A DNA stretch of 64,000 nucleotides from Anaeromyxobacter dehalogenans 2CP-C (GTDB taxonomy: Bacteria; Myxococcota; Myxococcia; Myxococcales; Anaeromyxobacteraceae), in contig NC_007760.1 in the NCBI RefSeq assembly GCF_000013385.1, positions 2,357,001-2,421,000 on the forward strand. Reading direction: 5' to 3'. Positions 15,214 to 43,762 of the stretch are shown here, one piece after another; the first letter of the stretch is position 1, and every line of letters starts with the position of its first letter. The notes beneath the pieces are model-generated. The model had not been told where the DNA came from. It ran no database searches and worked only from the letters and a program-made list of their open reading frames with translations. Both the position numbers and the translations under genes were made by a program.

Positions 15214-16623
15214 TCAGCGGCGATAGGACTTCAGGCGCTTCGACAGCGCCGGCTGCGAGATGCCGACCAGGCGGGCGGCCAGCGTCTGGTTCCCGCCGGA
15301 GCGCCGCATCGCCTCCTGCACCAGCAGCTCCAGCGCCTCGTCGAACGTGGGCAGCCGCTCCACCGCGCCGAACGGGTTCTGCCCTTCGTCGGCCGCGGGG
15401 TGGGCGCCGTTGCCGTGCCGGCCGATCGCCTCCAGGAACGCGTCCATGGAGAGCACGCGATCGCGGTGGCGGCTGACCGCGTCGAAGCACATGGCGCGCA
15501 GCTCGCGGACGTTGCCGGGGAAGTCGTGCGTCATGAGCAGCTGCGCGAGCTGCCTCGGCGGGGTGGGCTTCTTCTTCCCGAGCTGCCGCGCCGCCTCGCC
15601 GAGGAAGTGGTCGAGCAGGAGCGGCACGTCCTCGCGGCGCTCGCGGAGCGGCGGCACCCGCACCCGGTGCGTGCGCAGGCGGTAGTACAGGTCGCGCCGG
15701 AACATCCCGGCCCGCTCCTTGGCGGCGAGGTCCTGGTGCGTGGCGGCGACGACGCGCACCTTCACGCGCTTCGGCCGGTCGCTCCCGAGCGGGAAGTACT
15801 CGCCCTCCTGCAGGAAGCGCAGCAGCTTCACCTGCGACGGCACCGAGAGGTCCCCGATCTCGTCGAGGAACAGCGTGCCGTCGGCGGCCTCCTCCACCAT
15901 GCCGCGCCGGGCCTGCTCGGCGCCGGTGAACGCGCCGCGCAGGTGGCCGAACAGCGTGTCGGCGAACACCGCGTCGTCGAGCCCGGCCACGTTCACGGCC
16001 ACCAGCTTCCCGGGCAACCCGGAGAGCCGGTGCGCGGCCCCGGCCACCAGCTCCTTCCCCACCCCGCTCTCGCCGGTGACGAGCAGCGGCTGCGGGCTCC
16101 GCGCCACCGCCTCCACGTACGAGAACAGCGTCAGCATGGTGCGGTCCTGCGTGACGATGCCGGCGAACGCCTCGGGGTTGCGCAGCTCCCCGGACATGAA
16201 GCGCGCGGTCATCTCCCCGTTCTCGCGCTGCAGCTCCTGCATGCGCACGGCGCGCAGCACGCCGGCGACCAGCCGGTCCTCCTCCTCGGTCTTCACGTGG
16301 TAGTCGAACGCGCCGAGCTTCATGCAGCGCACCGCGGTCTCGACCTGGTTCATCCCGGAGACCACGATGACCTTCACGTCGGGGTGCTCCACCGAGATGC
16401 GGCCGAGCAGGTCCTCGCCGGACAGGTGCGGCATGGTCAGGTCGAGCAGCACCACCCCGACGTCGTTGCCGTCGAGCACCTCCATCACCCGCCGCGGATC
16501 CTGGCAGGTGAGCAGGTGGGTGATGCCGGCGGCGCGCTCGAGGGTGAGCGCCACCGAGCGCAGCCAGGCGGCCTCGTCGTCCACCGCCAGGACCGCGAAC
16601 GCGGGGTAGAAGGACTCGCTCAC
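15214..16623 (-). CDS. dctD: Sigma-54-dependent response regulator (DctD/NtrC family)
   Basis: A 469-residue activator. The receiver domain (about residues 10-125) has the phosphoacceptor in VVLLDLTMPHLSG. The AAA+ domain (about 150-380) has Walker A GESGVGKE, the sigma-54 contact loop GAFTGA and Walker B LFLDEIGD. A Fis-type helix-turn-helix ends the protein (GGNQTLAARLVGISQPALSKRL). It starts with GTG overlapping the stop of the kinase gene (GTGA), so the pair is translationally coupled. The natural target is the adjacent symporter gene, which has a sigma-54 promoter and paired upstream inverted repeats. The dctD name is by analogy. Confidence 0.9.
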   Translation of the reverse strand: MSESFYPAFAVLAVDDEAAWLRSVALTLERAAGITHLLTCQDPRRVMEVLDGNDVGVVLLDLTMPHLSGEDLLGRISVEHPDVKVIVVSGMNQVETAVRCMKLGAFDYHVKTEEEDRLVAGVLRAVRMQELQRENGEMTARFMSGELRNPEAFAGIVTQDRTMLTLFSYVEAVARSPQPLLVTGESGVGKELVAGAAHRLSGLPGKLVAVNVAGLDDAVFADTLFGHLRGAFTGAEQARRGMVEEAADGTLFLDEIGDLSVPSQVKLLRFLQEGEYFPLGSDRPKRVKVRVVAATHQDLAAKERAGMFRRDLYYRLRTHRVRVPPLRERREDVPLLLDHFLGEAARQLGKKKPTPPRQLAQLLMTHDFPGNVRELRAMCFDAVSRHRDRVLSMDAFLEAIGRHGNGAHPAADEGQNPFGAVERLPTFDEALELLVQEAMRRSGGNQTLAARLVGISQPALSKRLKSYRR

Positions 16624-18347
16624 GCCGCGGCCTCCTCGTGGAGCGCGGGCAGCACCAGCGCCGCGGTGGTGCCCACGCCCGGCTGCGAGCCGAACTCGAG
16701 CCGGCCGCCGTGCTCCTTCACGATCCCCGCCGACACCGACAGGCCGAGCCCGGTGCCGCCGCTCTCGCGCTTGGTGGTGAAGAACGGGTCGGTGAGCCGC
16801 GCCAGGTGCTCGGGGGGGATGCCGACGCCCTCGTCGCGCACCTCCAGCACCACCTCGCCGGCGGCCGCGTCGTGGCGGATCGAGAGGCGCAGCCCGTGAT
16901 CGCGGTCGGGGAGCGCCTGGCACGCGTTCAGGAGCAGGTTCACGATCACCTGCTCGAGCCGGTGCGGGTTGCCGCGCACGCGCGGCAGCCCGGGCGCGAC
17001 CGCCAGCTCGAACCGGGAGGTGGCGGCGCGGATGGGCGCCTCGAGCAGGCGCACCGCGGCGCGCGCGGAGGCGCCGAGGTCCATGGGCTCGAGCCGGGGC
17101 GCGTCGTCGCGCCGGGCGAAGTCCTTCAGGTCGTCCACGATGCGCTTGATGCGCCGCCCGCCCTCGGCGATCTCGTCCAGCATCTGCGGGATCTCGTCGC
17201 GCATGCGCGCGTACGGGATGCCGGCCAGCTTCAGCTCGCCCTCGCGCGCGCGCGCGTCGAGCGCCTCCTGCGCGTCGGCGAACGCGGCCTTGAGCGTGGG
17301 GACGTTGAGCAGGATGTAGCCGGCGGGGTTGTTGATCTCGTGGGCGACCCCGGACACGAGCACGCCCATCGCGGCCGCCTTCTGCGCCTGCACGAGCTGG
17401 TGCTGGTGCTCGCGCAGCGCGGCCACGGCCCGCTCGCGCTCGGCCACCTCGCGCTCCAGCGAGGCGGTGCGCTGGGCCACCAGCCGCCGCAGCGACCGGC
17501 TCCAGGCGATGCTGGCGCCGAGCAGCACGAGGATGGGCAGCGCGCCGAGCGCGGCGTAGCGCGCGACGGCCTTCCACCCGATGGGCCTGGGCTCGAGCGG
17601 CCCGAGCCAGCGCGCGTGGATGGCGTCGTAGCGCCCGGTCTGCTTCAGGATGGCGAGCCCCTCGTCGAAGCGCGCGAGCAGCTCGCGATCGCCCTTCCGC
17701 ACGGCGTACCCGTAGCGCTCGGCGCGCACGGGCTCGCCCACGGGCTCGATGTTGGTGAGCCCGAGCTGGCGCTGCAGGTAGATCCCGGGCAGGAGCGCCA
17801 GCACGACGCAGTCGTGCTGGCCGGAGGCGAGCAGGCGCAGCGCGTCGGCGGGCGTCTGCGTCCGGATCACCTCGGCGGCCTTGCCGGCCCGGGTGATCTC
17901 CTCGTCCATGATGCCGCCGCCGAACACCACCACCTCGCGCCCGGCCAGCGCGTCGAGCGAGGCGGGCCGGGGGCCGTCCTTCCGGACGAAGATGGCGTGG
18001 TGGACGATGGCGTGCGGCGCCGCGAAGTCCAGGCGGCGGGCGCGCTCCTCCGACCACGAGATGCCCTGGAGCACGTCGATGCTGCCGTCGGCGAGCCCGG
18101 CCCGGATGCCCGCCCAGTCCCCGAAGCGGAACTCGACCGTGAACCCCATCACCTCGCCGATGGCGCGGGTGAGGTCCACGTTGAAACCGGCCGGCTGGCC
18201 GTTCTCGTCGAGGAACTCGTAGGGCGGGTAGTCGCGGTCGGCCCCGACCACCACCCGCTTCGGCTGCGGCGCGGGCGGGACGGCCCGTGCAACCGGGGCC
18301 GCCGCCAGCACCGCGGCGACGAGCAGGCAAGCGTGGATTCGGCGCAT
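16620..18347 (-). CDS. Sensor histidine kinase with fused periplasmic solute-binding domain
   Basis: A 575-residue inner-membrane kinase. A signal peptide is followed by an SBP_bac_3-type binding domain (about residues 30-250; RVVVGADRDYPPYEFLDENG opens it). One transmembrane segment lies near 260-285 (ALGALPILVLLGASIAW). Then come a short coiled coil, the His box GVAHEINNPAGY near residue 335, and a HATPase domain with NLLLNACQAL, DEGVGIP and GGTGLGLSV. It is a DctB-like partner of the coupled response regulator, but DctB normally senses through PAS-like domains, not an amino-acid-type binding domain. The ligand may therefore be an amino acid such as glutamate or aspartate. Start chosen at the ATG before the signal peptide. 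Confidence 0.9.
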   Translation of the reverse strand: MRRIHACLLVAAVLAAAPVARAVPPAPQPKRVVVGADRDYPPYEFLDENGQPAGFNVDLTRAIGEVMGFTVEFRFGDWAGIRAGLADGSIDVLQGISWSEERARRLDFAAPHAIVHHAIFVRKDGPRPASLDALAGREVVVFGGGIMDEEITRAGKAAEVIRTQTPADALRLLASGQHDCVVLALLPGIYLQRQLGLTNIEPVGEPVRAERYGYAVRKGDRELLARFDEGLAILKQTGRYDAIHARWLGPLEPRPIGWKAVARYAALGALPILVLLGASIAWSRSLRRLVAQRTASLEREVAERERAVAALREHQHQLVQAQKAAAMGVLVSGVAHEINNPAGYILLNVPTLKAAFADAQEALDARAREGELKLAGIPYARMRDEIPQMLDEIAEGGRRIKRIVDDLKDFARRDDAPRLEPMDLGASARAAVRLLEAPIRAATSRFELAVAPGLPRVRGNPHRLEQVIVNLLLNACQALPDRDHGLRLSIRHDAAAGEVVLEVRDEGVGIPPEHLARLTDPFFTTKRESGGTGLGLSVSAGIVKEHGGRLEFGSQPGVGTTAALVLPALHEEAAA

Positions 18348-18405
18348 CGAGGCGCACGCTACGACGGGGCCGCCGCCGGGACAAGGCGGGGGGCAGGGAC
18401 GGGTC

Positions 18406-18476
18406 CGCTCGCCCTGAGCTGTCGAAGGGCGGGCGTTCTCGAACCCGCTCACCCTGAGCCTGTCGAAGGGTGGGCG
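18406..18476. repeat. Two copies of the CCCTGAGC-CTGTCGAAGGG repeat
   Basis: Two adjacent units, GCTCGCCCTGAGCTGTCGAAGGGC and GCTCACCCTGAGCCTGTCGAAGGG, about 40 bases apart. Each can fold through CCCT/AGGG-type arms. Related units occur at 35.3, 37.0 and 53.1 kb in this window. Confidence 0.7.
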
Positions 18477-19182
18477 GGGGCTGCGGACTCTCGAAGCCGG
18501 GTGCCCGTGGATGCGGGTCCTGATGGGCGCTCCCGCCCTCGCCCGCTCGCGCGACGTGGAGAAGGAATGCTCGGCGCGGGGCTTCGGTCGTAGGACGCGC
18601 GCGGGTCGCGTCCGGCGCAGTTGGGCGCGCTCGCAAACTCGGCCGCGCGTATCGCTTCGCGACGCGCGGCCTCAGACATGCTCGCCGCGCACGCCGGCTG
18701 GATACGCGCGCGAGAGGTGATCGTCGCGGGCTGCGCCTGCGCTGACAGTCGCGGTCGCGGGCGAGGGCGTCCGCTTGGCGGACGGGGGGCCGTACTGGCG
18801 GCTTCGAGGTGTTCGGGGGCTCTGCGCGAGATGTTCCTTGCCCCACGCCTCCCGTCCACGTCAGGCCGCCACGGAGGCGATCCGGGCGTTCGCGCCGGAG
18901 CAGAGCGGAGCGAGCCCTCTGCGCGTCTCCAGGATCCTAGACCTGCACCGCCGGGGACAGCCGCTGCAGGAGGGACCGGCGCAGCCGGCGCCGGCGTCGC
19001 GCCGCGGCTGGCCCGCACGGTGCGTCGGCTTCCACGATCCCACCGCACCGGTTCCGGCCATCCATCCACGTCCCGGGCCTTGCGGAGCGAGCACCGCCGC
19101 GAATGCCCGGACCGCCGACCTAGCGGCCCGTTCCAGGACAGGGCCCGCTGGAGGCGGACACGCGCCCCAACGCGAAAGACGA
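18477..19182. other. Long intergenic region without a recognisable gene
   Basis: About 700 bases with open frames on both strands, but no ribosome site, no domain and no recognisable product. Base composition and codon patterns look less regular than in neighbouring genes, so decayed coding DNA is possible. It must contain the promoter of the kinase/activator pair. Confidence 0.4.
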
Positions 19183-19213
19183 CGGCCCCACCCCCGGACC
19201 GGGAGCGGGGCCG
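19183..19213 (-). terminator. Hairpin terminator of the resB-ccsA operon
   Basis: CGGCCCC (19183-19189) pairs with GGGGCCG (19207-19213), 27 bases after the ccsA stop. Read on the minus strand, the stem is followed by TCGTCTTTCG, a partial U-tract. Confidence 0.6.
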
Positions 19214-19239
19214 CCTCGCTTTCGAAGCGCCGGAAGTAC

Positions 19240-21057
19240 CTAGTGCCCCGGCTCCGGCGACGGCTCCTGCTGCTTGCCTGCCGCGTGCGCCGTCCTCCAG
19301 AACTGCGCCGGCAGCAGCGTGAACGCCATGATGGCGAGCTGCGAGGCGATGAAGCCGGTGAGCGCCCAGAACGCGCTGTCCATGAAGCCGTACGAGTGGA
19401 GCCCCACGCCCAGCATGTTCACGCCGAACCAGGACAGGCTGGTGATGACGTTGCCGAAGATCGCCATCGCCATGATGCCGCGCTCGCGGACGAACCCGCC
19501 CCAGCGCGCGTGCAGGATGATCGCGTTCCACAGCACGATGAGCAGCGCGCCGTTCTCCTTCGGATCCCAGCCCCAGAACCGGCCCCAGGACTGGTCGGCC
19601 CAGATGCCGCCCAGCACCGTGCCCAGGAAGCTGAAGAAGAGCGCGAAGCAGATGACGCCGTAGGTCATCCCCATGAGCGCCTTGGTGGTGCCCGGGTCCG
19701 GCTTGCGCACGAGGTGCTTGCGGAGCGTGTAGCCGATGGCCATCGCGCCCGCGAGGAACGTGCCGCTGTAGCCGATGGTGATGGTGACGACGTGGGTGGC
19801 GAGCCAGAAGTTCGAGTCCAGCACCGCCCGCATCATCTCCATCGTGTCGCCGTCGCCGGAGAGGTGGTGCGCCACGATGAGCGAGGCGAACCCCGAGGCC
19901 GCGGCCACCGCGGTCGCGAACCCCTTCCTGTAGATGCGCTCCAGGATGACGCCCAGCACCACCGCGCCCCACCCCACGAACACCGCGGAGGAGTAGAGGT
20001 TCGTGACCGGCGGGCGGCCCTGCAGGAGCACGCGCGAGACGAGGCCCAGCGTGTGGATCAGCGCGCCCGCCACCAGCAGGCCGTACGCGGCCGGCTGCAG
20101 GATCTTCGGCTTCCAGAGCCAGGAGGCGAACAGCGCCAGCATCGCGAGCACGTACACCACCATGCCCGCGTAGAACGGCTGCGCCCGGTTGAAGACGATC
20201 TCGTGGCCCGCGAGGTCGATCGAGTCCGGGCGCGCCGCGGCGTCGGCGGCGGTGACGTCGGCCACCGCGCGGCCGAAGCTCGACGGGTCCTGCGCCATGT
20301 ACGCGACCGAGAGCCGCGCCCAGCCCGACAGCGCGTCCCCCACCTGGCCGGACGCGGCGCCGCGCAGCGCCTGGCCCATGTTGAGCCAGTCGTCGCCGGT
20401 GGTGCCCGCGGCCGGCGGGATCGGGCGGAAGTAGGCCAGCTCCTCGATGGCCTGGTGGCGCTGCTGCGCGCCCGGCGTGCCTGCCGAGGCCACCTCCGCC
20501 GCGAGGCCGGGCGAGCCGGCGAGCTGCACGGTGTTCTTGAGGCGGTAGTACAGGTACACGCGCTCGAACAGGTTCGCGATGGCCGACTGGAAGCGCGTGC
20601 GCTGCTTCGCGTCCACCTGGTGCGCCGCCATGGCCTGCTTCTGGATCTCCTCCAGGTGCGGGACGAGCGCGCTGAACGCGAAGTAGCGGTTCGAGCTCTG
20701 GCGCATGCCCATGAGCCCGAGGACCTCCGGGTCGTTGATCACGAACACCGGGTACTGGTCCGCGAGCTCCGGGCGGAACAGGACGTCCAGGATCCACTCG
20801 TCGGACGAGATGGTCCGGCCCTTCTGCGGGCCGTCGCCGTCCGGGTCGTACCTGAAGCTCTGCTGGCCGCGGATCATCAGCAGCGCGTTGCGCGACACCG
20901 AGTCCACCGGCTTCACGCGCCCGCCCTCCAGCACCGGCAGCCGGCCGAACGCGTCGGTGTCGAACCCGCGGACCGGGCTCGGCGGGATGACGGCGATCGC
21001 CGCGCCGACGACGGCGAGGCCGCCGGCGAGCCAGGGGATCAGCTTCTCGAGCTTCAT
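19240..21057 (-). CDS. ccsA: Cytochrome c biogenesis protein CcsA/ResC (System II)
   Basis: A 605-residue polytopic membrane protein. The C-terminal half carries the tryptophan-rich heme-handling motif WGRFWGWDPKENGALL, followed by several membrane segments and conserved histidines. The N-terminal half has one membrane segment and a large soluble region, longer than in a minimal CcsA, as in other proteobacterial versions. With ResB it exports heme and ligates it to CxxCH motifs of apocytochromes outside the membrane. The start overlaps the resB stop (ATGA). The seven-heme cytochrome at 10.5 kb is an obvious client. Confidence 0.93.
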   Translation of the reverse strand: MKLEKLIPWLAGGLAVVGAAIAVIPPSPVRGFDTDAFGRLPVLEGGRVKPVDSVSRNALLMIRGQQSFRYDPDGDGPQKGRTISSDEWILDVLFRPELADQYPVFVINDPEVLGLMGMRQSSNRYFAFSALVPHLEEIQKQAMAAHQVDAKQRTRFQSAIANLFERVYLYYRLKNTVQLAGSPGLAAEVASAGTPGAQQRHQAIEELAYFRPIPPAAGTTGDDWLNMGQALRGAASGQVGDALSGWARLSVAYMAQDPSSFGRAVADVTAADAAARPDSIDLAGHEIVFNRAQPFYAGMVVYVLAMLALFASWLWKPKILQPAAYGLLVAGALIHTLGLVSRVLLQGRPPVTNLYSSAVFVGWGAVVLGVILERIYRKGFATAVAAASGFASLIVAHHLSGDGDTMEMMRAVLDSNFWLATHVVTITIGYSGTFLAGAMAIGYTLRKHLVRKPDPGTTKALMGMTYGVICFALFFSFLGTVLGGIWADQSWGRFWGWDPKENGALLIVLWNAIILHARWGGFVRERGIMAMAIFGNVITSLSWFGVNMLGVGLHSYGFMDSAFWALTGFIASQLAIMAFTLLPAQFWRTAHAAGKQQEPSPEPGH

Positions 21058-32120: not shown

Positions 32121-33089
32121 ATGGACACTGCGCGTGAACTCTCGGCTCAGCTGGCCACCCTCCTCCGCCGTGAGCGCTCTGCCCTCGCGGAGTTCCTCGT
32201 CGCGCTCGCGGACTTCGACGCGCGGCGCGCGTGGGCGGAGCTGGGGTACGCCTCGCTGTTCCACTACCTGCACCGGGAGCTCGGGCTGTCCAAGGGCTCC
32301 GCGCAGTACCGCAAGGTCGCGGCGGAGCTCATCCAGGCGGTCCCGGCGGTCATCGAGCCGCTGCGGGATGGGCGGCTGTGCTTCACGACCATCATCGAGG
32401 TGGCGCGGGTGGTGGACGCCCGGAACTGGGAGGGGGCGCTGCCTCGGTTCTACGGGCTGTCGCGGCACGAGGCGGCGGAGGTCGTCGTGGCGCTGGCGCC
32501 GCATCCGGCACCGCCGGTACGGACGGTGCTCACGGCGGTGCGTGGCCCCGGGTCGGCTGGTTCAACTGTTGAACCGGTCGCTCCGCCACCGGGGTCGTCC
32601 CGCTCGGCGGCGCTCACGCCGCTCACGGCGGAACGTCAGCGGCTTCACGTCACGGTAAGTGAACGTTTCGGGCGCAAGCTGGAGCGACTCCGCGATCTGC
32701 GTCCGGACCTCTCCGACGACGCGCTGCTCGAGGCGGCGGTGGACCTCCTCCTCGCCAAGGCGGAGAAGCGGAAGGGCGCGCTCACGGAGCGGCCTCGGGC
32801 GTCGGTCCGGCCTTCCCGCGATCCGCGTCACATTCCGGCCCACGTGCGCCGTGAGGTCTGGCGGCGGGACGGGGGGTGCTGCCAGTGGCGGGTGGCGAGC
32901 GGGGAGATCTGCGGTTCCACGCATGCGCTCCAGCTCGACCACGTCGTGCCGCTGGCGCTGGGCGGGGAGTCGTCTCCGGGCAACCTTCGCGTGCTCTGCG
33001 CGGCGCACAACCTCCTCGCGGCGCGGCGGGTGCTGGGGGACGCGCTGATGGATCGCCATGCGGTTCCGCGGGCTCGCGGAGCCCCTTGA
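32121..33089 (+). CDS. HNH endonuclease domain protein
   Basis: A 322-residue protein. The N-terminal helical region (about 1-130; YASLFHYLHRELGLSKGSAQ) is the type found on multicopy HNH proteins of GC-rich bacteria. A low-complexity linker and second helical segment follow. The C-terminal HNH domain (about 240-310) has GGCCQW, LQLDHVVPLALGG, NLRVLCAAHN, giving the metal-binding His/Asn/His. Substrate and role are unknown. The flanking repeats and atypical codon use suggest a mobile or recently spread gene. It is followed 35 bases later by the RdgC-like pair. Confidence 0.83.
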   Translation: MDTARELSAQLATLLRRERSALAEFLVALADFDARRAWAELGYASLFHYLHRELGLSKGSAQYRKVAAELIQAVPAVIEPLRDGRLCFTTIIEVARVVDARNWEGALPRFYGLSRHEAAEVVVALAPHPAPPVRTVLTAVRGPGSAGSTVEPVAPPPGSSRSAALTPLTAERQRLHVTVSERFGRKLERLRDLRPDLSDDALLEAAVDLLLAKAEKRKGALTERPRASVRPSRDPRHIPAHVRREVWRRDGGCCQWRVASGEICGSTHALQLDHVVPLALGGESSPGNLRVLCAAHNLLAARRVLGDALMDRHAVPRARGAP

Positions 33090-33124
33090 CCTTCTTCCCG
33101 CCCTCCCCCATCTTGCGCCCCCCT

Positions 33125-33760
33125 ATGCCCATCCGACGAGGTTCGGTCACCTTCGCTCGCTTCCGCGCGGAGATCCCCGCGAAGCGCTCCTCCGACACGC
33201 GCCGCTGGCTGGCCCGCGGGCTCGCCAAGGGCGCCTTCGAGCCGCTCGACGTGGAGCGCGGGGAGGACGATCGGGCGGCGGGGTTCGTCTCCGCTGAGGA
33301 CCCTGGGATCACGGACTTCACCTCCGGCGTGCTCGAGGGCGAGTGGGCGCTGTTCGGGTTCCGGGTGGACACGCTGCGCGTGCCCGCCTCGGCGGTCCGG
33401 GCGGAGCTGGACCGGTGGATCGCGCTCCACGAGAAGGAGCGGGGCCGGCCGCCGACCAAGGGCGAGAAGGCGACGCAGAAGGACCTCATCCGCCATGCGC
33501 ACCGGCAGCGGGCGGTTCCTTCCAGCAAGGTGCATGACGTGAGCCTGCACCTCGGGTCTGGCGAGCTGCTGGTGTGGGCGGCGTCGCGCAAGCTGGTGGA
33601 CGAGATCGCGGCGGCGGTGGAGGGGGCGCTGGAGATCAAGCTGACGCCCTCCTCGGTGAGCGCGCTGGCGGTCCGGTCGGAGATCTCCGACTCGGCGCTG
33701 GTTCCCACCGCGGCGCTGACGGGGCTTTCGGGGAAGGAGGCGCGCGATGTCGAGGCGTGA
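33125..33760 (+). CDS. rdgC: RdgC-like recombination-associated protein, N-terminal part
   Basis: A 211-residue protein. The segment from about residue 80 (LFGFRVDTLRVPASAVRAEL, then KGEKATQKDLIRHAHRQRAV, then GELLVWAASRKLVDEIAAAV) follows the layout of RdgC: a strand, a charged helix with a K/R-rich turn, and VRSS-like then DAAS-like strands. E. coli RdgC (about 303 residues) is a ring-shaped DNA-binding protein that limits RecA. Here the frame ends early and the next gene overlaps by 14 bases, so the RdgC fold may be split over two polypeptides. Family assignment is by recall of the pattern, not alignment. Confidence 0.65.
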   Translation: MPIRRGSVTFARFRAEIPAKRSSDTRRWLARGLAKGAFEPLDVERGEDDRAAGFVSAEDPGITDFTSGVLEGEWALFGFRVDTLRVPASAVRAELDRWIALHEKERGRPPTKGEKATQKDLIRHAHRQRAVPSSKVHDVSLHLGSGELLVWAASRKLVDEIAAAVEGALEIKLTPSSVSALAVRSEISDSALVPTAALTGLSGKEARDVEA

Positions 33761-37341: not shown

Positions 37342-37926
37342 TCAGGACTCTTCCCGACTGCCCTCGACCGCGCGGCGCCGGATGATCTCGGCCAGCCGGT
37401 CCTTGATGCGCTCGTAGCGCTTGCGCAGCGTGGCCGGGTCCACGCGCTTCCCCTCCTGCGACAGAACCTCCGCGACCTCGTCCCAGGAGAGCTGCTGGTC
37501 GAGCCGCAGCACGAGCAGCGTCTGCTCCTCGTCGTCCAGCATCGCGCGCAGCTCCTCCAGCTCCTGGCGCTGGCGCTCGAGGCGGACCCCGGTTCGGGTG
37601 CGCACGTCGGCGGCGAGGCGGGTCGCCTCGGTGGTGTCGAGCCGCTGCCCCAGCCGCCGCCAGGCGTCGTCGCGCACCTTCATGGCGGCGCTCCAGGCGG
37701 CCTTGAACGCCCAGGTGCGGGCGCTGGAGCGGCGCTGGAAGCCCGGCATGCCGCGCCACACCTGCTCGGCGAACAGCGCGAACGCGTCGGAGGCGGCGGT
37801 CTCGTCGCGGAGCAGGACGTTCAGGTAGCCCAGGATCCGGGGCCCGTAGCCGCGGATGATCTCGGTCGCGGCCAGGCGGTGATCGCCTGCCTCCAGCGCC
37901 GCGGAGACCCGGGACTCGACGTCCAT
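37342..37926 (-). CDS. ECF-like sigma-70 family RNA polymerase sigma factor
   Basis: A 194-residue protein. Region 2 (about 20-85) shows RILGYLNVLLRDETAASDAF and AFKAAWSAAMK. Region 4 (about 125-180) shows LEELRAMLDDEEQTLLVLRL and LSWDEVAEVLS then DPATLRKRYERIK, the promoter-recognition helix-turn-helix. It is more diverged in region 2 than typical ECF factors. It follows the ATP-grasp gene by 53 bases on the same strand, the last of a five-gene run. No anti-sigma gene is adjacent. Confidence 0.85.
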   Translation of the reverse strand: MDVESRVSAALEAGDHRLAATEIIRGYGPRILGYLNVLLRDETAASDAFALFAEQVWRGMPGFQRRSSARTWAFKAAWSAAMKVRDDAWRRLGQRLDTTEATRLAADVRTRTGVRLERQRQELEELRAMLDDEEQTLLVLRLDQQLSWDEVAEVLSQEGKRVDPATLRKRYERIKDRLAEIIRRRAVEGSREES

Positions 37927-37979
37927 CCCGCGCAATGTAGACGACCCTGCACGGGCGGTCGAGACGGGTACGGGGTGGG

Positions 37980-38921
37980 TCACCGGCCCGCCAGCAGCCC
38001 AGCGAGAGCCGAGGTGATCGGCTGTCCGGTCCGCTCCTCCACGAACCCCCACTGGCCGCTCGGGTTCAGCTCCAGGAACGCCCAGGAGCCGTCGTCCCGG
38101 CGCCGGAAATCGGCCGCGCCGTAGACGAGCCCCAGGTCCGCCATGAGCCGGCGCAGCCCGGCCGCGATGCGGTCCGGAAGCTCGCAGGCCGCCACGCGGC
38201 AGAGGTGGGTCACCGGGCGGAAGTCGTCCGGCGAGACCGTGTCGCGCGCGTCGAGGTCGGCCGCGAAGAGCTGGTCGCCGACCACCGTCACGCGCACGTC
38301 CACCCCCGGCACGCGCTCCTGGAAGATGACCGGCGCGAGCGGCAGCGACGCGAGCCGCGCCAGGTCGTCGGGGCCGACGCGGCGGGTGGGCCGCCACAGC
38401 GCCGGGGTTCCGGCGGCGAGGACCTTGTGGACGGCGCCGTCCGGTCCGCACGCGCCGAGGAACGCGCGCGCCGCATGCGGATCGCTGGTGATGAGCGTGC
38501 GCGGCACCTCGAGCCCGGCGCGCTCCGCCGCGGCGAGCTGGTTCGGCTTGTGCGCGGCGGCCGCGTCGCGCCAGGGATCGTTGACGAAGCGCGCGCCGCG
38601 CAGCGACGCCAGGAGGCCCATCGCCGCCTCGCCGGTCTGCCGGGTGGCGAACGCGGCGTCCTCCGGGCGGAGCCCCGGCGCGGCGGCGTGCGGCAGGGGG
38701 CGCCGCCACCAGACCGCGCTGACCTCGGCCGCGTCGATGGGCGGTCGCCCGTCGATCCGGAGCTCGCGTGCGCCACCGCCCGCACCGTAGCCGAGCACCA
38801 CCCGGCCCCGCCGCGGCAGGTCCGAGAGGTCGAGCACGGTCGCGTCGGCGCCGAGCGCCTCGAGCGCGCGGAGCACGAGCGGCGCGTGCTCGTCGCCGGC
38901 GTGGGTGATGGCGAGGATCAC
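37980..38921 (-). CDS. ATP-grasp ligase resembling graspetide (microviridin-type) peptide maturases
   Basis: A 313-residue enzyme. The N-terminal part has VSAVWWRRPLPHAA near residue 68; a W-x-R-R motif at this place is a mark of the MvdC/MvdD and SAV_5884-like peptide maturases. The ATP-grasp part follows: NDPWRDAAAAHKPNQLAAAE, AVHKVLAAG with a nucleotide-binding Lys, VIFQERVPGVDVRVTVVGDQ, and FLELNPSGQWGF with the metal-binding Glu/Asn near the end. Such enzymes join Asp/Glu side chains to Ser/Thr/Lys in a precursor peptide, forming lactones or lactams. It starts with GTG, 55 bases after a small protein gene. Other ATP-grasp roles, such as RimK-like tailing, remain possible. Confidence 0.78.
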   Translation of the reverse strand: MILAITHAGDEHAPLVLRALEALGADATVLDLSDLPRRGRVVLGYGAGGGARELRIDGRPPIDAAEVSAVWWRRPLPHAAAPGLRPEDAAFATRQTGEAAMGLLASLRGARFVNDPWRDAAAAHKPNQLAAAERAGLEVPRTLITSDPHAARAFLGACGPDGAVHKVLAAGTPALWRPTRRVGPDDLARLASLPLAPVIFQERVPGVDVRVTVVGDQLFAADLDARDTVSPDDFRPVTHLCRVAACELPDRIAAGLRRLMADLGLVYGAADFRRRDDGSWAFLELNPSGQWGFVEERTGQPITSALAGLLAGR

Positions 38922-38976
38922 GGGAAGGAGCCGGCGCGCGCCGCCACAGGAGACCGCGCGCGCCGGCGGGGTGACG

Positions 38977-39297
38977 CTAGATGGCGGTCTTCTCCGACGG
39001 CACGGCCGGGGACGCCTGCTGCGCCTCCGCCTGCAGCGTCGTGTACCAGCGCTCCACCGCCTGCATGTGCTGGATGCTGCCGTCGCTCAGGAAGTTCTCG
39101 CGGTGCGCTCGCTGCAGCAGGTCGAGCACCTTCGAGAGCGTCGCGACCAGCTCGACGGCGGTCGCCTGGCGCTTCGCGGCGAGCTCGGGGCTCACCTCCT
39201 CGACGCCGAACGGGCGGGGGGCGGTGAGCCCGACGGCGGTGATGCCCGGCTGGTCCTTTTCTTGGACGGTGGCCATCAGATCCGGATTCTTCGGCAT
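38977..39297 (-). CDS. Small protein next to the ATP-grasp ligase, candidate peptide substrate
   Basis: About 106 residues, hydrophilic, no signal peptide. The N-terminal third is extended and contains GLTAPRPFGVEEVSPEL (about residues 23-39). The RPFG piece recalls the recognition motif of ATP-grasp-modified precursors. The middle is a predicted helical pair (AVELVATLSKVLDLLQRAHR; HMQAVERWYTTLQAEA). The tail ASPAVPSEKTAI offers Ser, Thr, Lys and Glu. A classical repeated Thr/Glu core is not visible, so it may be a carrier or partner, not a precursor. The ATG at 39297 has GAGGAG six bases upstream; another ATG two codons earlier abuts that site and is less likely. Confidence 0.75.
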   Translation of the reverse strand: MPKNPDLMATVQEKDQPGITAVGLTAPRPFGVEEVSPELAAKRQATAVELVATLSKVLDLLQRAHRENFLSDGSIQHMQAVERWYTTLQAEAQQASPAVPSEKTAI

Positions 39298-39376
39298 TGG
39301 CATCTCCTCAGGGATGGATGGAAGTGGAACGAGCGAATGCTACGAAAGGGACGGACACGCACGGCCCGACGCACAC

Positions 39377-42331
39377 TTACAGCGAAGCTCGCAGCGCGCG
39401 CGCGTCCCGCGCCAGCGGGACATCGGCGTCCGCATGCGCGAGCATCCCGAGCAGGCGATCCACCGTCGTGCGCGCTGCTGCGCGGTCTCCCAGGTTCCGT
39501 TGGGCCAGCGCGGTGATGTACAGGGTGCGCGGATAGGCGAACGCCCGCCAGGTGCCACGCGGCGGCAAGCGCAGGAACCGCTGCGCGGCCGCGAGGGCCT
39601 CGCGGTGGTCGCCGAACGCCGCACTCACCTCGGCAGCGAGGTAGGCGGGTGGCAACCCCTCCACCGGCCAGGCATCGCGCGCCTCCGACGCGGCGAGCCG
39701 GGCGAGCGCGCCGGTCGCGTCGCCCGCCCGCCACAGCTCGAGCGCTGCCAGCTCCTCTGCCGCCACGGAGCCAGGGGGAAGCGCACGCCCGAGCTCGCGG
39801 GCGTGCTGAACGTCTCCGAGCAGCGCCAGCGGTACCGCCAGGTCGGCCGCGTAGGCTGGGTTCACCGCCGCGGCACGCGCGGCATACGGCCATACGCGGG
39901 CGGCATCCCACGCGGTGACCACGAGCAGCGCTGCGGAGTAGTGGCGGCCCTGGCTCTCCGGAACCTGGGAGTATCTCGCCGCGCACTCCTGGAGCGCCTC
40001 CCGCGCCCTGCCCTGCATCGCGAGCGCGAGCGCGCGCGTGAGGCGCCCATACGCTGCCGGCACGTGCTGTGCGACCTCCTCCATCTCGCGGACGTCTCCG
40101 GCCCCGCTGGCCGCAGCCGCGAGAAGCGGCGCCTGGGAGGCTCCGTTCCGTGCGAACGCGCGCCGCGCCTCGGCCAGGGCAGCCTGCGACTCCCCGAGCC
40201 ATTGGTGGATGCTCACCAGGGTCGCGCTGCGCCCTGGCGAGTCGGGCCGCGCGGCGATCCGTTCGCGCAGGGCGCGGAGATCCTCCGTGCGCCGAAGCCG
40301 CCCCAGCGCCTCGACGAGCGTCGCGAGCGGATCCTGCCGGTCGGGCGCGAGCGCGACCACCTTCTCGTAGTACGGCACGCTGTCCGCCCACTTGCCCTGC
40401 CGCCAGAGGATCTCGCCCGCACCCTCCAGCGCCTCGAGGTCATCCGCCGCGACGGCCAGGATCGCGTCGTAGAGCTGGCGCGCCTCGTCGAGCCGCCCGC
40501 CGATGCGGGCGGCCAGCGCCTGGACGAGCAGCCGCTCGCGCTCGCCGAGGCGGTCCGCGCCCCGCAAGGCCGCCTGGACGTGTCGCTGTCCGACATCGTC
40601 CCTCGCGCCCTGGAGCGACCGCACGGCCGCCAGCCTGTAGTGCGCCAGCGGGAACGCGGGATCCAGCGCGAGCGCACGCTCGAAGGACGAGGCGCACGCC
40701 TCCATGGCCGCCCCAACCGGCTCCGCCCTCTCCAGACAATCCACCCCCGCGTAGTACCAGCGCGCCGCCTCCGGGCTCGCGGTCACGGCCTCCGCCACCG
40801 GGCGCCGCACACGGCGGTCGGCGCGGCGCTCCTTCGCCTCGCGGCGGATCCGCTCGGCGAGCTGGTCCACGCCGTCCGACATGCCCGAGGCGCTCCACAG
40901 GTCGGCGCTCGCCTCGAACAGCTCCTTGCCGGTCTCCGACTCGACCGCCCGCACCGACAGCACCGGGCCGTGCTCGCCCGGCTCCGCGGACGGCAGCAGC
41001 ACCAGGCCGGCGCCGGCGATGCGGGCCAGGTTGCGCGCCCGCTCGGCGTCGAGCCGCCCCGGCTCCCCCAGCCCGGCCTCGCGCGACACCGCGGCGAGCC
41101 GCGCCGGCGCCAACAGCCGGACGCGCTTCGACGGCTCGAGCGCGGCGGCGAGCAGGCCGGGGACCGCGTCGAGCGTGGGATCGCCGGCGCGGTTCTCCAT
41201 GGCGCCGAGCACCGCCTTCAGCTGCTCGCCGGGCGGCGGCTCGCGGTCGAGCGCGAGCCAGGCGGAGAGCGCGATCGCGGAGAGCGCCACGCTGGCGGTC
41301 GCGACCAGGGTGCGGCGGCGGGTGCGGCCGGCGTGCGCCTGCTGGATGGCGAGCAGCGCGTCGCGGGCCTCGCGCGCGCTGGCGGGGCGCCGCGCGGCGT
41401 CGCGGTCGAGCAGCCGCCGCACCAGCGCCCGGAGCGCCCTCGGCGCGGCCCGGCGCGGCAGGGCCGGCGTCGGGCCGGGCTCCTGAGCCTCGCTCCAGTC
41501 CTTGTCCACCCGGTACGGCAGCGCGCCCGAGAGGCACTGGTGCAGGATGACGCCGAGCGCGAACAGGTCCACCCGCGCGTCGCCGCCCTCCCCCTCCCAC
41601 TGCTCGGGCGCCATGTACGCGGGCGTCCCGCCGTCGCCGATGCCGCCGCGGCCGAACAGGTGCGCGAACCCGAAGTCGAGCACCTTCACCTCGCCGTCGT
41701 CGGTGAGGTGGACGTTGCCGGGCTTGAGGTCGCGGTGGACGACGCCGGCCGCGTGCGCGTGCACGAGCGCCCGCGTGATGGCGACGCCGAGGTCGATCAC
41801 CTGCTCGAAGCCGAGCGTCTTCTCGCGCTCCAGCCGCCGCGACAGCGAGTCGCCGCGCAGCAGCTCGAACACGAGGTACGGGCCCTCCGGCGCCTGCCCG
41901 AAGTCGTGCAGCGTGACGATGTTCGGGTGGTTGAGCCGCGCCACCGCCTCGGCTTCGCGCTGCATCCACTCGCGGCCGCGGGTGGCGATGCGCGTGCCCG
42001 GGCGCACCACTTTCACCGCCACCGTCCGGCCCAGGTCGCCGTCCTCGGCCTCGTACACCACGCCGAAGCCGCCGCGCCCCAGCTCGCGGACCAGCCGGAA
42101 GCGGCCGATGGTGGCGCCGGGCCGGAGCACCGGGGACCACGCATCGCCGAGCGGCACGTCGTTCACGTGCACCATCTCGGCGAGCAGGCGCGTGAGCTGG
42201 ACCGAGCGGTGCTCGCTGGACGACTCGGCGCGCGGCGAGTCCTGGCTCACCGGCTCGGCGGTCTGGGCGGGCTTGGGCGGCGTCACGAGGGGTCCCGGGT
42301 CCGCCCCGGGTTCTATCAGATGCCCGGACAT
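39377..42331 (-). CDS. Membrane-anchored Ser/Thr protein kinase with TPR-like C-terminal domain
   Basis: A 984-residue Hanks-type kinase. The catalytic domain (about 77-335) has the glycine loop GRGGFG at 85-90, VAVKVV with the ATP lysine near 107, VVHRDLKPGN, DFGFAHL and MAPEQWEGE. A transmembrane segment (TLVATASVALSAIALSAWLA) is near 340. The outer half is a long alpha-helical, TPR-like array containing repeats such as ALDPAFPLAHYRLAA and ALEGAGEILWRQGKW. This is a common myxobacterial architecture. It is the second gene of the run Kelch-kinase-peptide-ATP-grasp-sigma, 79 bases before the peptide gene, so it may control the system. Confidence 0.93.
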   Translation of the reverse strand: MSGHLIEPGADPGPLVTPPKPAQTAEPVSQDSPRAESSSEHRSVQLTRLLAEMVHVNDVPLGDAWSPVLRPGATIGRFRLVRELGRGGFGVVYEAEDGDLGRTVAVKVVRPGTRIATRGREWMQREAEAVARLNHPNIVTLHDFGQAPEGPYLVFELLRGDSLSRRLEREKTLGFEQVIDLGVAITRALVHAHAAGVVHRDLKPGNVHLTDDGEVKVLDFGFAHLFGRGGIGDGGTPAYMAPEQWEGEGGDARVDLFALGVILHQCLSGALPYRVDKDWSEAQEPGPTPALPRRAAPRALRALVRRLLDRDAARRPASAREARDALLAIQQAHAGRTRRRTLVATASVALSAIALSAWLALDREPPPGEQLKAVLGAMENRAGDPTLDAVPGLLAAALEPSKRVRLLAPARLAAVSREAGLGEPGRLDAERARNLARIAGAGLVLLPSAEPGEHGPVLSVRAVESETGKELFEASADLWSASGMSDGVDQLAERIRREAKERRADRRVRRPVAEAVTASPEAARWYYAGVDCLERAEPVGAAMEACASSFERALALDPAFPLAHYRLAAVRSLQGARDDVGQRHVQAALRGADRLGERERLLVQALAARIGGRLDEARQLYDAILAVAADDLEALEGAGEILWRQGKWADSVPYYEKVVALAPDRQDPLATLVEALGRLRRTEDLRALRERIAARPDSPGRSATLVSIHQWLGESQAALAEARRAFARNGASQAPLLAAAASGAGDVREMEEVAQHVPAAYGRLTRALALAMQGRAREALQECAARYSQVPESQGRHYSAALLVVTAWDAARVWPYAARAAAVNPAYAADLAVPLALLGDVQHARELGRALPPGSVAAEELAALELWRAGDATGALARLAASEARDAWPVEGLPPAYLAAEVSAAFGDHREALAAAQRFLRLPPRGTWRAFAYPRTLYITALAQRNLGDRAAARTTVDRLLGMLAHADADVPLARDARALRASL

Positions 42332-42388: not shown

Positions 42389-43762
42389 CTACTCGTAGAC
42401 CTCCGCCTGCCGGAGCGCGGCCGCGCTGTCCTCGCCGCCGACCACCAGGACCCGTCCGTCGGGGAGCGCCGTGGCGCTGTGGAGGGCGCGCCGGGCGCCG
42501 AGTCGGACCGGCCCCGGGGTGAACGCCCGGGTCGCCGGGTCCCACAGCTCCACCGTGTCGAGCCGCTTGCCGTCCACGTCGGTGCCGCCCGCCACCAGCA
42601 CCCGCCCGTCGGCGAGCAGCGTGGCGGTGTGGTCCGCCCGCGGCGTCGCGAGCGCCCCGGCCGGCGTGAAGGCGCCCGTGTCCGGGTCCCACAGCTCGGC
42701 CTCGGCCACGTACGTCCACCCCGCGTCGAGCCCGCCCACCACCAGCACGCGGCCGTCGCCGAGCCGCACCGCCGCGTGGCCGCCGCGGGGGTGCGCGAGC
42801 GAGCCGGTGAGCGCGAACGACTCGGTGACCGGGTCGAACAGCTCGGCCTCGACCGCGTCGCCGCCGGAGAAGCTGTTCAGCCCGCCCGCCACCAGCACCC
42901 GCCCGTCGCGCAGGATCGTGGCGGTGTGGAACGCGCGTGGCTGGATCATGGCCGAGCCCGCCGGCGCCCGGCTCGCGGCCGCGTCCGGGTCGAGCAGCTC
43001 CTCGGTGACGACCGAGCCCGGCGCCCTGCCCAGCCATGCGCCGCCGGTGACGAGCACGCGGCCGTCCTCGAGCAGCGAGAGCGCGTGGCCCGCGCGCGCC
43101 TGGGCGAGCGCGCCCGGCTCGGTCCAGAGTCCGTCCGCCGGATCCCAGACCGCGGCGAGGTCCTCCCGGTCGCGGAAGTTGCTCTGCCCGCCCGCCACCA
43201 GCACGCGTCCGTCGGCGAGGCGCAGCGCGGCAGCGGCCGCGAGGCCCAGGCGCAGTTCGCCGGTGGCCGCCGAGGTGCCGGTGGTCGCGTCGTAGAGCTC
43301 CGCGGTCCAGCTGAATGTCGAGATGTTCGCCGAGCCGGTGGCGAGCAGGACGCGGCCGTCCCCGAGGCCCACCGCGACGTGCTGCGCGCGGGCGCTCCCT
43401 GGCGGGTCCAGCGGCCGGATGGCGTCGCGGTAGGCGAACGGGACCCGGACCACCGCCTCGGCGCGCTCGGCGCCGTCCTCGACGATCAGCCGGTAGGTGC
43501 GCGCCTCGAGCGCGGGGCCCACCTGGTATCGGCCACCGCTCGTCACCGGGCCGACATCCGGCTCGATGCGCGCGGTGCCGCGCGCGAACGCCGGCACGAG
43601 CGTCACGCCGGCGCCCGGCGCGAACGCGGGCGGGTCGGCCGCGAGCGCCGCGGCGAGCGGGCGCGGCTCGGCGCCGGAGGAGCCGCCGGTGCAGCCGGCG
43701 AGCGCGGCGGCCGCGGCCGAGAGGGCGGCGACCATCACGGAAAGTGCGTGGCGGGAGCGCAT
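42389..43762 (-). CDS. Kelch-repeat lipoprotein
   Basis: A 457-residue secreted lipoprotein: signal peptide with lipobox ALAGCTG near residue 23, an Ig-like region (about 40-120), then six or so Kelch-type blades. Each blade has a variant of LxDGRVLVAGG followed by ELWDPxTxxF, for example GDGRVLLATGSAN, DGRVLVAGGQSN, DGRVLVVGGLDAG. Kelch propellers usually bind proteins or glycans. It is the first gene of the minus-strand run that includes the kinase, 57 bases upstream of it. It is divergent from the TonB-like gene. Confidence 0.88.
   Translation of the reverse strand: MRSRHALSVMVAALSAAAAALAGCTGGSSGAEPRPLAAALAADPPAFAPGAGVTLVPAFARGTARIEPDVGPVTSGGRYQVGPALEARTYRLIVEDGAERAEAVVRVPFAYRDAIRPLDPPGSARAQHVAVGLGDGRVLLATGSANISTFSWTAELYDATTGTSAATGELRLGLAAAAALRLADGRVLVAGGQSNFRDREDLAAVWDPADGLWTEPGALAQARAGHALSLLEDGRVLVTGGAWLGRAPGSVVTEELLDPDAAASRAPAGSAMIQPRAFHTATILRDGRVLVAGGLNSFSGGDAVEAELFDPVTESFALTGSLAHPRGGHAAVRLGDGRVLVVGGLDAGWTYVAEAELWDPDTGAFTPAGALATPRADHTATLLADGRVLVAGGTDVDGKRLDTVELWDPATRAFTPGPVRLGARRALHSATALPDGRVLVVGGEDSAAALRQAEVYE

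Follow-up and report, generated by a model that had tools for sequence, protein, structure and literature searches.

Introduction

Graspetides of known activity are mostly protease inhibitors. In Bacillota, the pherotypes of ComQXPA systems rest on strain-specific comQXP polymorphism, and comQ forms clusters at 65-70% nucleotide identity (PMC4408185). Control of extracytoplasmic function (ECF) sigma factors by kinases is established for EcfP/PknT and EcfK/PknS (PMC8999054). We analysed a stretch of 64,000 nucleotides (the window) at positions 2,357,001-2,421,000 of the 5,013,479-bp chromosome of Anaeromyxobacter dehalogenans 2CP-C. The minus strand of this window carries an operon predicted to encode, in order of transcription, a Hanks-type Ser/Thr kinase with a tetratricopeptide repeat (TPR) domain, a small protein of 106 amino acids, a graspetide-type ATP-grasp ligase, and an ECF-like sigma factor. 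We propose that this operon is a maturase-ligand-receptor-regulator system in which the modified small protein would be the specificity ligand of the kinase and the kinase would control the sigma factor, a reading to which we assign a probability of about 0.48.

Surveys of graspetide loci from 2022 and 2026 list histidine-kinase-like ATPases, HTH (helix-turn-helix) or OmpR regulators, TPR proteins, phosphotransferases, and transporters at such loci, and an association with a TPR Ser/Thr kinase or a sigma factor does not appear in the main text of either survey (PMC8939145, PMC13097080). The gene set considered here was picked out by an earlier note on the same DNA, and its account of four same-strand genes holds in coordinates and order, with gaps of 79, 55, and 53 bases down the operon and 57 bases between the kinase gene and a Kelch-repeat lipoprotein gene (Table 1).

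Results

An allelic island covers the TPR domain, the small protein, and half of the ATP-grasp ligase

We compared three close alleles, those of the window and of the genomes G001 and G006. Over 213 windows of 300 bp, the median identity between the sister genome G001 and the window is ~96%. Between ~40780 and ~38390, a distance of 2.4 kb, nucleotide identity to G001 is 54-81% with sharp borders at either end, making this the longest low-identity run against G001 in the 64-kb window. The island takes in the TPR superhelix and the entire small protein, and it extends over the N-terminal half of the ATP-grasp ligase; the kinase domain and the sigma factor are 98-99% identical. Synonymous divergence (dS) from G001 follows the same outline. 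The kinase domain and stalk have values of 0.05-0.07, the three parts of the TPR domain 0.59, 0.99, and 1.57, and the small open reading frame (ORF) 0.58-1.35. Values in successive parts of the ATP-grasp gene are 0.53, 0.28, and, at the C-terminal end, 0.16; the sigma factor gene has 0.11. The left border, at amino acid ~517 of the kinase, coincides with the point where the TPR superhelix starts in the model (amino acid 520), and the most variable helices (amino acids ~680-805) are central in the TPR array.

The window groups with G001 outside the island and with G006 inside it. Counts of sites shared with G001 and with G006 were 147 and 27 in the left flank, 116 and 272 in the TPR domain, 23 and 95 in the small ORF, 15 and 88 in the N-terminal part of the ATP-grasp gene, and 122 and 40 in the right flank. 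When the window is compared with G006, divergence is found in the TPR domain and in residues 1-33 of the small protein (dS 0.60-0.81 in the hottest parts), and the remainder of the small protein and the ATP-grasp ligase are near baseline. By this pattern the N-terminal stretch of the small protein tracks the TPR domain, and its C-terminal part tracks the maturase. Across these alleles the sensor domain of the receptor, the precursor, and the maturase are polymorphic as one block, and the kinase domain and the regulator are conserved. A paralogous TPR kinase compared between the same genomes has no island, and general divergence of TPR kinases was rejected as an explanation on this ground. A second stretch of the window, at 18401-19300 and shorter than the island, also has low identity to G001; apart from the ORF at 16620-18452, no clear gene was seen there.

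These data bear on an alternative that we consider unlikely, although it is the strongest of those weighed here: the operon could be an ordinary graspetide cluster, making an inhibitor or bacteriocin under kinase-sigma control, with a TPR domain that senses something else and an island that is a chance recombination tract. Kinase-sigma pairs do exist without an ATP-grasp gene, the prevailing activity of graspetides is in keeping with such a product, and bacteria commonly show recombination tracts of 2-3 kb. A chance tract, however, sits poorly with borders that match the TPR superhelix on one side and end inside the maturase on the other, with the recurrence of the TPR domain and the N-terminus of the small ORF as hot spots in the independent comparison with G006, and with the tie between the kinase and one clade of ATP-grasp ligases throughout the family.

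The kinase is predicted to carry its TPR domain outside the cytoplasm

The description of the first gene product as a TPR-tailed membrane Ser/Thr kinase is borne out by Pfam matches (PF00069 and TPR) and a single transmembrane segment at amino acids 341-361 by hydropathy. The kinase domain (amino acids 79-317) precedes this helix, and an alpha/beta stalk and the TPR superhelix (amino acids ~520-984) follow it. Because there is one transmembrane helix with arginines on its kinase side, the TPR domain should be extracytoplasmic. A Foldseek search with the model of the ectodomain returned generic TPR proteins only. Together with this predicted topology, the covariation of the TPR domain with the small protein points to an extracytoplasmic ligand-receptor pair.

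The earlier note, seeing no transporter, had suggested a product that might act within the cell, which is at odds with a covarying TPR domain placed outside the cytoplasm. A version of that idea would make the small protein an intracellular signalling switch, cross-linked by the ATP-grasp ligase and acting on the kinase or the sigma factor without export. The small protein has a predicted folded helical hairpin, no exporter or leader peptidase gene lies nearby, and the genome has no C39 peptidase, all of which would fit a cytoplasmic role. Yet the kinase domain and the sigma factor, the cytoplasmic partners in such a scheme, have not varied along with the small protein, and given the topology as well we regard a cytoplasmic switch as improbable.

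The kinase domain also matches LanL (127.6 bits) and LanKC (66.5 bits) among many models, which raises the idea of the kinase as a tailoring enzyme that phosphorylates the small protein, like the kinase domains of class III/IV lanthipeptide synthetases, with the sigma factor a bystander; the putative precursor does contain Ser/Thr residues. PknB-type models score higher, though, the kinase is membrane-anchored with no lyase or cyclase domain found, and its family pairs with sigma factors where neither precursor nor ATP-grasp gene is present. A tailoring role is therefore very improbable.

The sigma factor scores 44 bits against TIGR02937 (cut-off 42.9), and alignment places AASD/DAAD in its sigma-2.2 region in place of DAED.

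The ATP-grasp ligase is related to graspetide synthetases

Profile searches with the ATP-grasp ligase gave 252 bits for GRASP_SAV_5884 (TIGR04187; E 6.8e-75), 156 bits for MvdC (E 9.7e-46), and 136 bits for MvdD (E 2e-39), compared with only 31 bits for RimK (E 1.3e-7). The enzyme also matches PF21068 above cut-off, and graspetide synthetases are its top PDB matches by sequence search. The C-terminal signature FLELNPSGQWGFVE is intact, as is the W-x-R-R motif noticed earlier, present as VWWRRP before the ATP-grasp domain. These scores rule out RimK, LysX, or another amino-acid ligase, and the enzyme is not a GshB or D-Ala ligase. By its sequence the ligase is of the graspetide type, in the MvdC/MvdD/SAV_5884 superfamily. 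Since its scores lie below the curated cut-offs (252 of 350 for TIGR04187, 156 of 425 for MvdC, and 136 of 475 for MvdD), it is a relative and not a member of these named subfamilies.

The small protein is a putative precursor

The small ORF is a real gene judging from its GC content by codon position (0.70/0.44/0.94), homologues in two other genomes, and a dN/dS of 0.3-0.4 against G006. The small protein is 79% identical in G006 and 37% in G001; for comparison, the ATP-grasp ligase is 93% and 78% identical. A GAGGAG ribosome-binding site suits a start at 39297, and an in-frame ATG at 39303 would lengthen the protein to 108 amino acids. No family match was found in NCBIfam, Pfam, or PHROGs, and assignment to a known family was rejected. 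In an AlphaFold model, residues 1-36 are disordered and residues 37-67 and 72-94 form a helical hairpin with pLDDT (the model's confidence score) mostly 77-88 in this block.

A P-[FW]-[GALV]-x motif is present in 11 of 14 small ORFs from related loci, where shuffling predicts 1.55; the motif was picked after some of the sequences had been viewed, and the excess is descriptive. It takes the forms RPFG, RPWG, VPFG, VPWGC, LPWGC, QPWGC, VPFLL, VPFVL, and VPFAL. Its position is often mid-protein or near the C-terminus, and it lies in the C-terminal part of the ORF in G002a, G022b, G023, G015, and G009a. A candidate core, T-x-x-x-K-D or a close variant, precedes the motif in the proteins of G000 (the genome of the window), G006, G001, and G022a and is duplicated in that of G001 (ATTLSKDEPSITAV ... 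ATTLSKDAATTVAL). We infer that the motif is a recognition element for the maturase and that the N-terminal part is the core, which would reverse the usual order of leader and core. Engineered fuscimiditide precursors with a repositioned leader still work (PMC13003496).

Histone-H1-like, Lys/Ala-rich small ORFs occupy the precursor position at L044 (G018a), L047 (G009b), and L048 (G017). In G018a and G017 another ORF comes after the basic H1-like one, and it carries PVPFLL and a helical hairpin.

A hairpin similar to the GC-rich one between the precursor and ATP-grasp genes is kept in G006 and G001 despite the divergence of the island. This hairpin is possibly a transcript attenuator or stabiliser, and it may set the expression ratio of precursor to enzyme.

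The cassette recurs in one clade of Anaeromyxobacteraceae

ATP-grasp homologues were found in 91 of 195 genomes of the phylum. In a tree of 83 sequences, those adjoining a TPR kinase gene form one exclusive clade of 12 with a support of 0.98 and no outsider, confined to Anaeromyxobacteraceae and spread over several genera. The kinase gene is directly upstream in all 12, with one or two small ORFs between, and two further loci that are cut by contig ends (G015 and G023) have the same gene order. This recurrence shows that the cassette is not a chance arrangement. The expectation of the earlier note that the small protein would stand beside close homologues held for position, since a small ORF lies between the two genes at every locus not cut by a contig end, but did not hold for sequence, of which the small ORFs have little in common. 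More distant ATP-grasp loci of the phylum, the microviridin-type ones included, do not adjoin a TPR kinase, and linkage to a kinase was rejected as a general trait of Myxococcota ATP-grasp ligases.

A sigma factor gene adjoins 8 of 13 ATP-grasp loci, either after the ATP-grasp gene or before the kinase gene; at a ninth locus the genes probably fall on separate contigs (L042 and L104). In Anaeromyxobacteraceae, sigma-kinase pairs that lack an ATP-grasp gene are frequent. These pairs suggest that the sigma factor is the constant partner of the kinase and that the kinase-sigma pair is the base module to which the peptide part was added. In line with the earlier note, the kinase and the sigma factor are true long-term partners.

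Anaeromyxobacteraceae contain a large family of Ser/Thr kinases with TPR ectodomains (L098, L100, L102-L117), many paired with the same type of sigma factor and without an ATP-grasp gene. In G015, short contigs (L051, L054, L055) bear about five ATP-grasp matches, partial or diverged, which suggests several peptide loci in that lineage.

Neighbouring features of the window

The Kelch gene is probably not a core part of the operon. It is missing at the equivalent place in locus L040 and was rejected as a core component for lack of conservation. Further along, the gene at 32121-33760 (MDTARELSAQLATLLRRE...) has relatives that recur near L038, L039, L045, and L110, and it is possibly a repeated HNH/DUF222-type gene.

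Table 1. Features of the operon and its surroundings (positions in the window).
Feature	Position	Strand	Remarks
Kelch-repeat lipoprotein gene	42389..43762	-	Upstream of kinase; common to G006 and G001 only
Hanks-type Ser/Thr kinase, 984 aa	39377..42331	-	Pfam, hydropathy, AlphaFold ectodomain model
Hypervariable TPR part of kinase, aa ~517-984	39380..40780	-	Inside allelic island
Putative precursor, 106 aa	38977..39297	-	N-terminus disordered, bearing T-x-x-x-K-D; R-P-F-G at residues 28-31; helical hairpin at C-terminus
GC-rich hairpin, 12-bp outer stem	38930..38967	-	Between precursor and ATP-grasp genes
Graspetide-type ATP-grasp ligase, GTG start, 313 aa	37980..38921	-	Relative of GRASP_SAV_5884 (TIGR04187)
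Divergent N-terminal and central ATP-grasp part	38390..38921	-	Inside allelic island
ECF-like sigma-70 factor, 194 aa	37342..37926	-	TIGR02937 match; sigma-2.2 alignment

Discussion

A proposed ligand-receptor system

The island has the pattern of a pheromone locus, and for this reason we propose the modified N-terminal peptide as the ligand of the TPR domain and the sigma factor as the target of the kinase. The ATP-grasp ligase would bind the small protein through the PFG/PWG element and probably also the C-terminal helical hairpin. In the flexible N-terminal region with T-x-x-x-K-D it would link side chains through ester or amide bonds, a reaction that loses water overall. The modified N-terminal part would then be released and exported to act on the extracytoplasmic TPR superhelix as its specificity ligand. 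Binding would alter the kinase, which would control the ECF-like sigma factor by phosphorylation. On this reading, three parts would have changed as a single allelic unit, much as in pheromone systems with pherotypes: the precursor, the TPR domain as receptor, and the half of the maturase that binds the precursor. The kinase domain and the sigma factor would have stayed constant. The gene order and its conservation, the enzyme family, the predicted single-pass topology, the island with its borders, and the phylogenetic discordance are read from sequence; the chemistry of the modification, the choice of core, export, binding, and transfer from kinase to sigma factor are what we infer. More tentatively than the general scheme, we suggest a Gram-negative pheromone system with a graspetide ligand, the TPR ectodomain of a Hanks-type kinase as receptor, an ECF sigma factor, strain-specific pherotypes, and a recognition element C-terminal to the core.

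Several observations weigh against this proposal. Export is its weakest link: as the earlier note had seen, no transporter or protease gene adjoins the operon, no signal peptide is apparent in the small protein by inspection, and a Peptidase_C39 search that succeeds on control genomes finds no match in this one, so that a C39-peptidase exporter encoded elsewhere was rejected. Only three close alleles are at hand, and a single recombination tract could account for much of the contrast between the window and G001. The TPR domains of kinases without an ATP-grasp partner also evolve faster than the kinase domains, with no jump in divergence in the control that was tested. The motif is missing from the small ORFs of G002b and G009b, and five ATP-grasp loci have no adjoining sigma factor gene. 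The Ser in sigma-2.2 is not conserved (AASD, AAAD in G006, DAAD), which leaves a phosphosite of the EcfP type unproven; an EcfP-like site was rejected on this account.

If true, the proposed system would give a purpose, self-signalling, to a graspetide, a class whose natural roles are mostly unknown, and a class of ligand to the orphan TPR receptor kinases of myxobacteria. It would also mean that strain-specific signalling can evolve by block swap of receptor, ligand, and maturase parts, and it is testable with few genes.

Comparison with known systems

We know of no pathway in myxobacteria that joins a peptide ligand, a Ser/Thr kinase, and a sigma factor with strain-specific alleles, and to our knowledge a recognition element C-terminal to the core has been described solely in engineered precursors. 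We found no earlier description of graspetide loci with a TPR Ser/Thr kinase or a sigma factor in the main text of the open-access papers searched.

Among graspetides, the closest are those of TIGR04187, the best-scoring subfamily, and the graspimiditides (fuscimiditide, ThfA/ThfB), which share with this locus the enzyme superfamily, an adjoining small ORF, and a P-[FW]-G-like element. The present enzyme is below the TIGR04187 cut-off, however, the motif often falls mid-protein or in the C-terminal half and not in an N-terminal leader, and the locus has a TPR receptor kinase and a sigma factor but no transporter, protease, or methyltransferase gene. The microviridin-type graspetides of Myxococcaceae come from the same phylum and enzyme superfamily. 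They differ in having an N-terminal PFFARLL leader, a GG site, KYPSDxDE repeats, and tandem ATP-grasp ligases without an adjoining TPR kinase, and they fall in a part of the tree separate from the cassette clade.

In ComQXPA and agr of Bacillota, the maturase, a hypervariable precursor, and the sensor domain likewise make up a polymorphic block beside a constant kinase domain and regulator. Those systems use isoprenylated ComX or a cyclic autoinducing peptide, histidine kinases, and response regulators, whereas this operon has an ATP-grasp maturase, a Ser/Thr kinase, and an ECF sigma factor. The ECF groups linked to Ser/Thr kinases (ECF43 with PknT-EcfP and PknS-EcfK; also ECF59, 61, 62, 217, and 283) resemble it in the adjoining kinase and sigma factor genes and the altered DAED motif; it differs in having AASD/DAAD and not STTA, a kinase with a TPR ectodomain, and a peptide maturase in the operon. 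The RRNPPA receptors (Rap, NprR, PlcR, Rgg) use a TPR superhelix as a receptor for peptide pheromones, as proposed here, but they are cytoplasmic and bind re-imported oligopeptides, whereas this TPR domain would be the ectodomain of a membrane kinase. The parts are of known kinds, and as far as we have seen the assembly, the allelic structure, and the possibly reversed layout of the precursor are new; there is a real chance that this is a new kind of signalling system.

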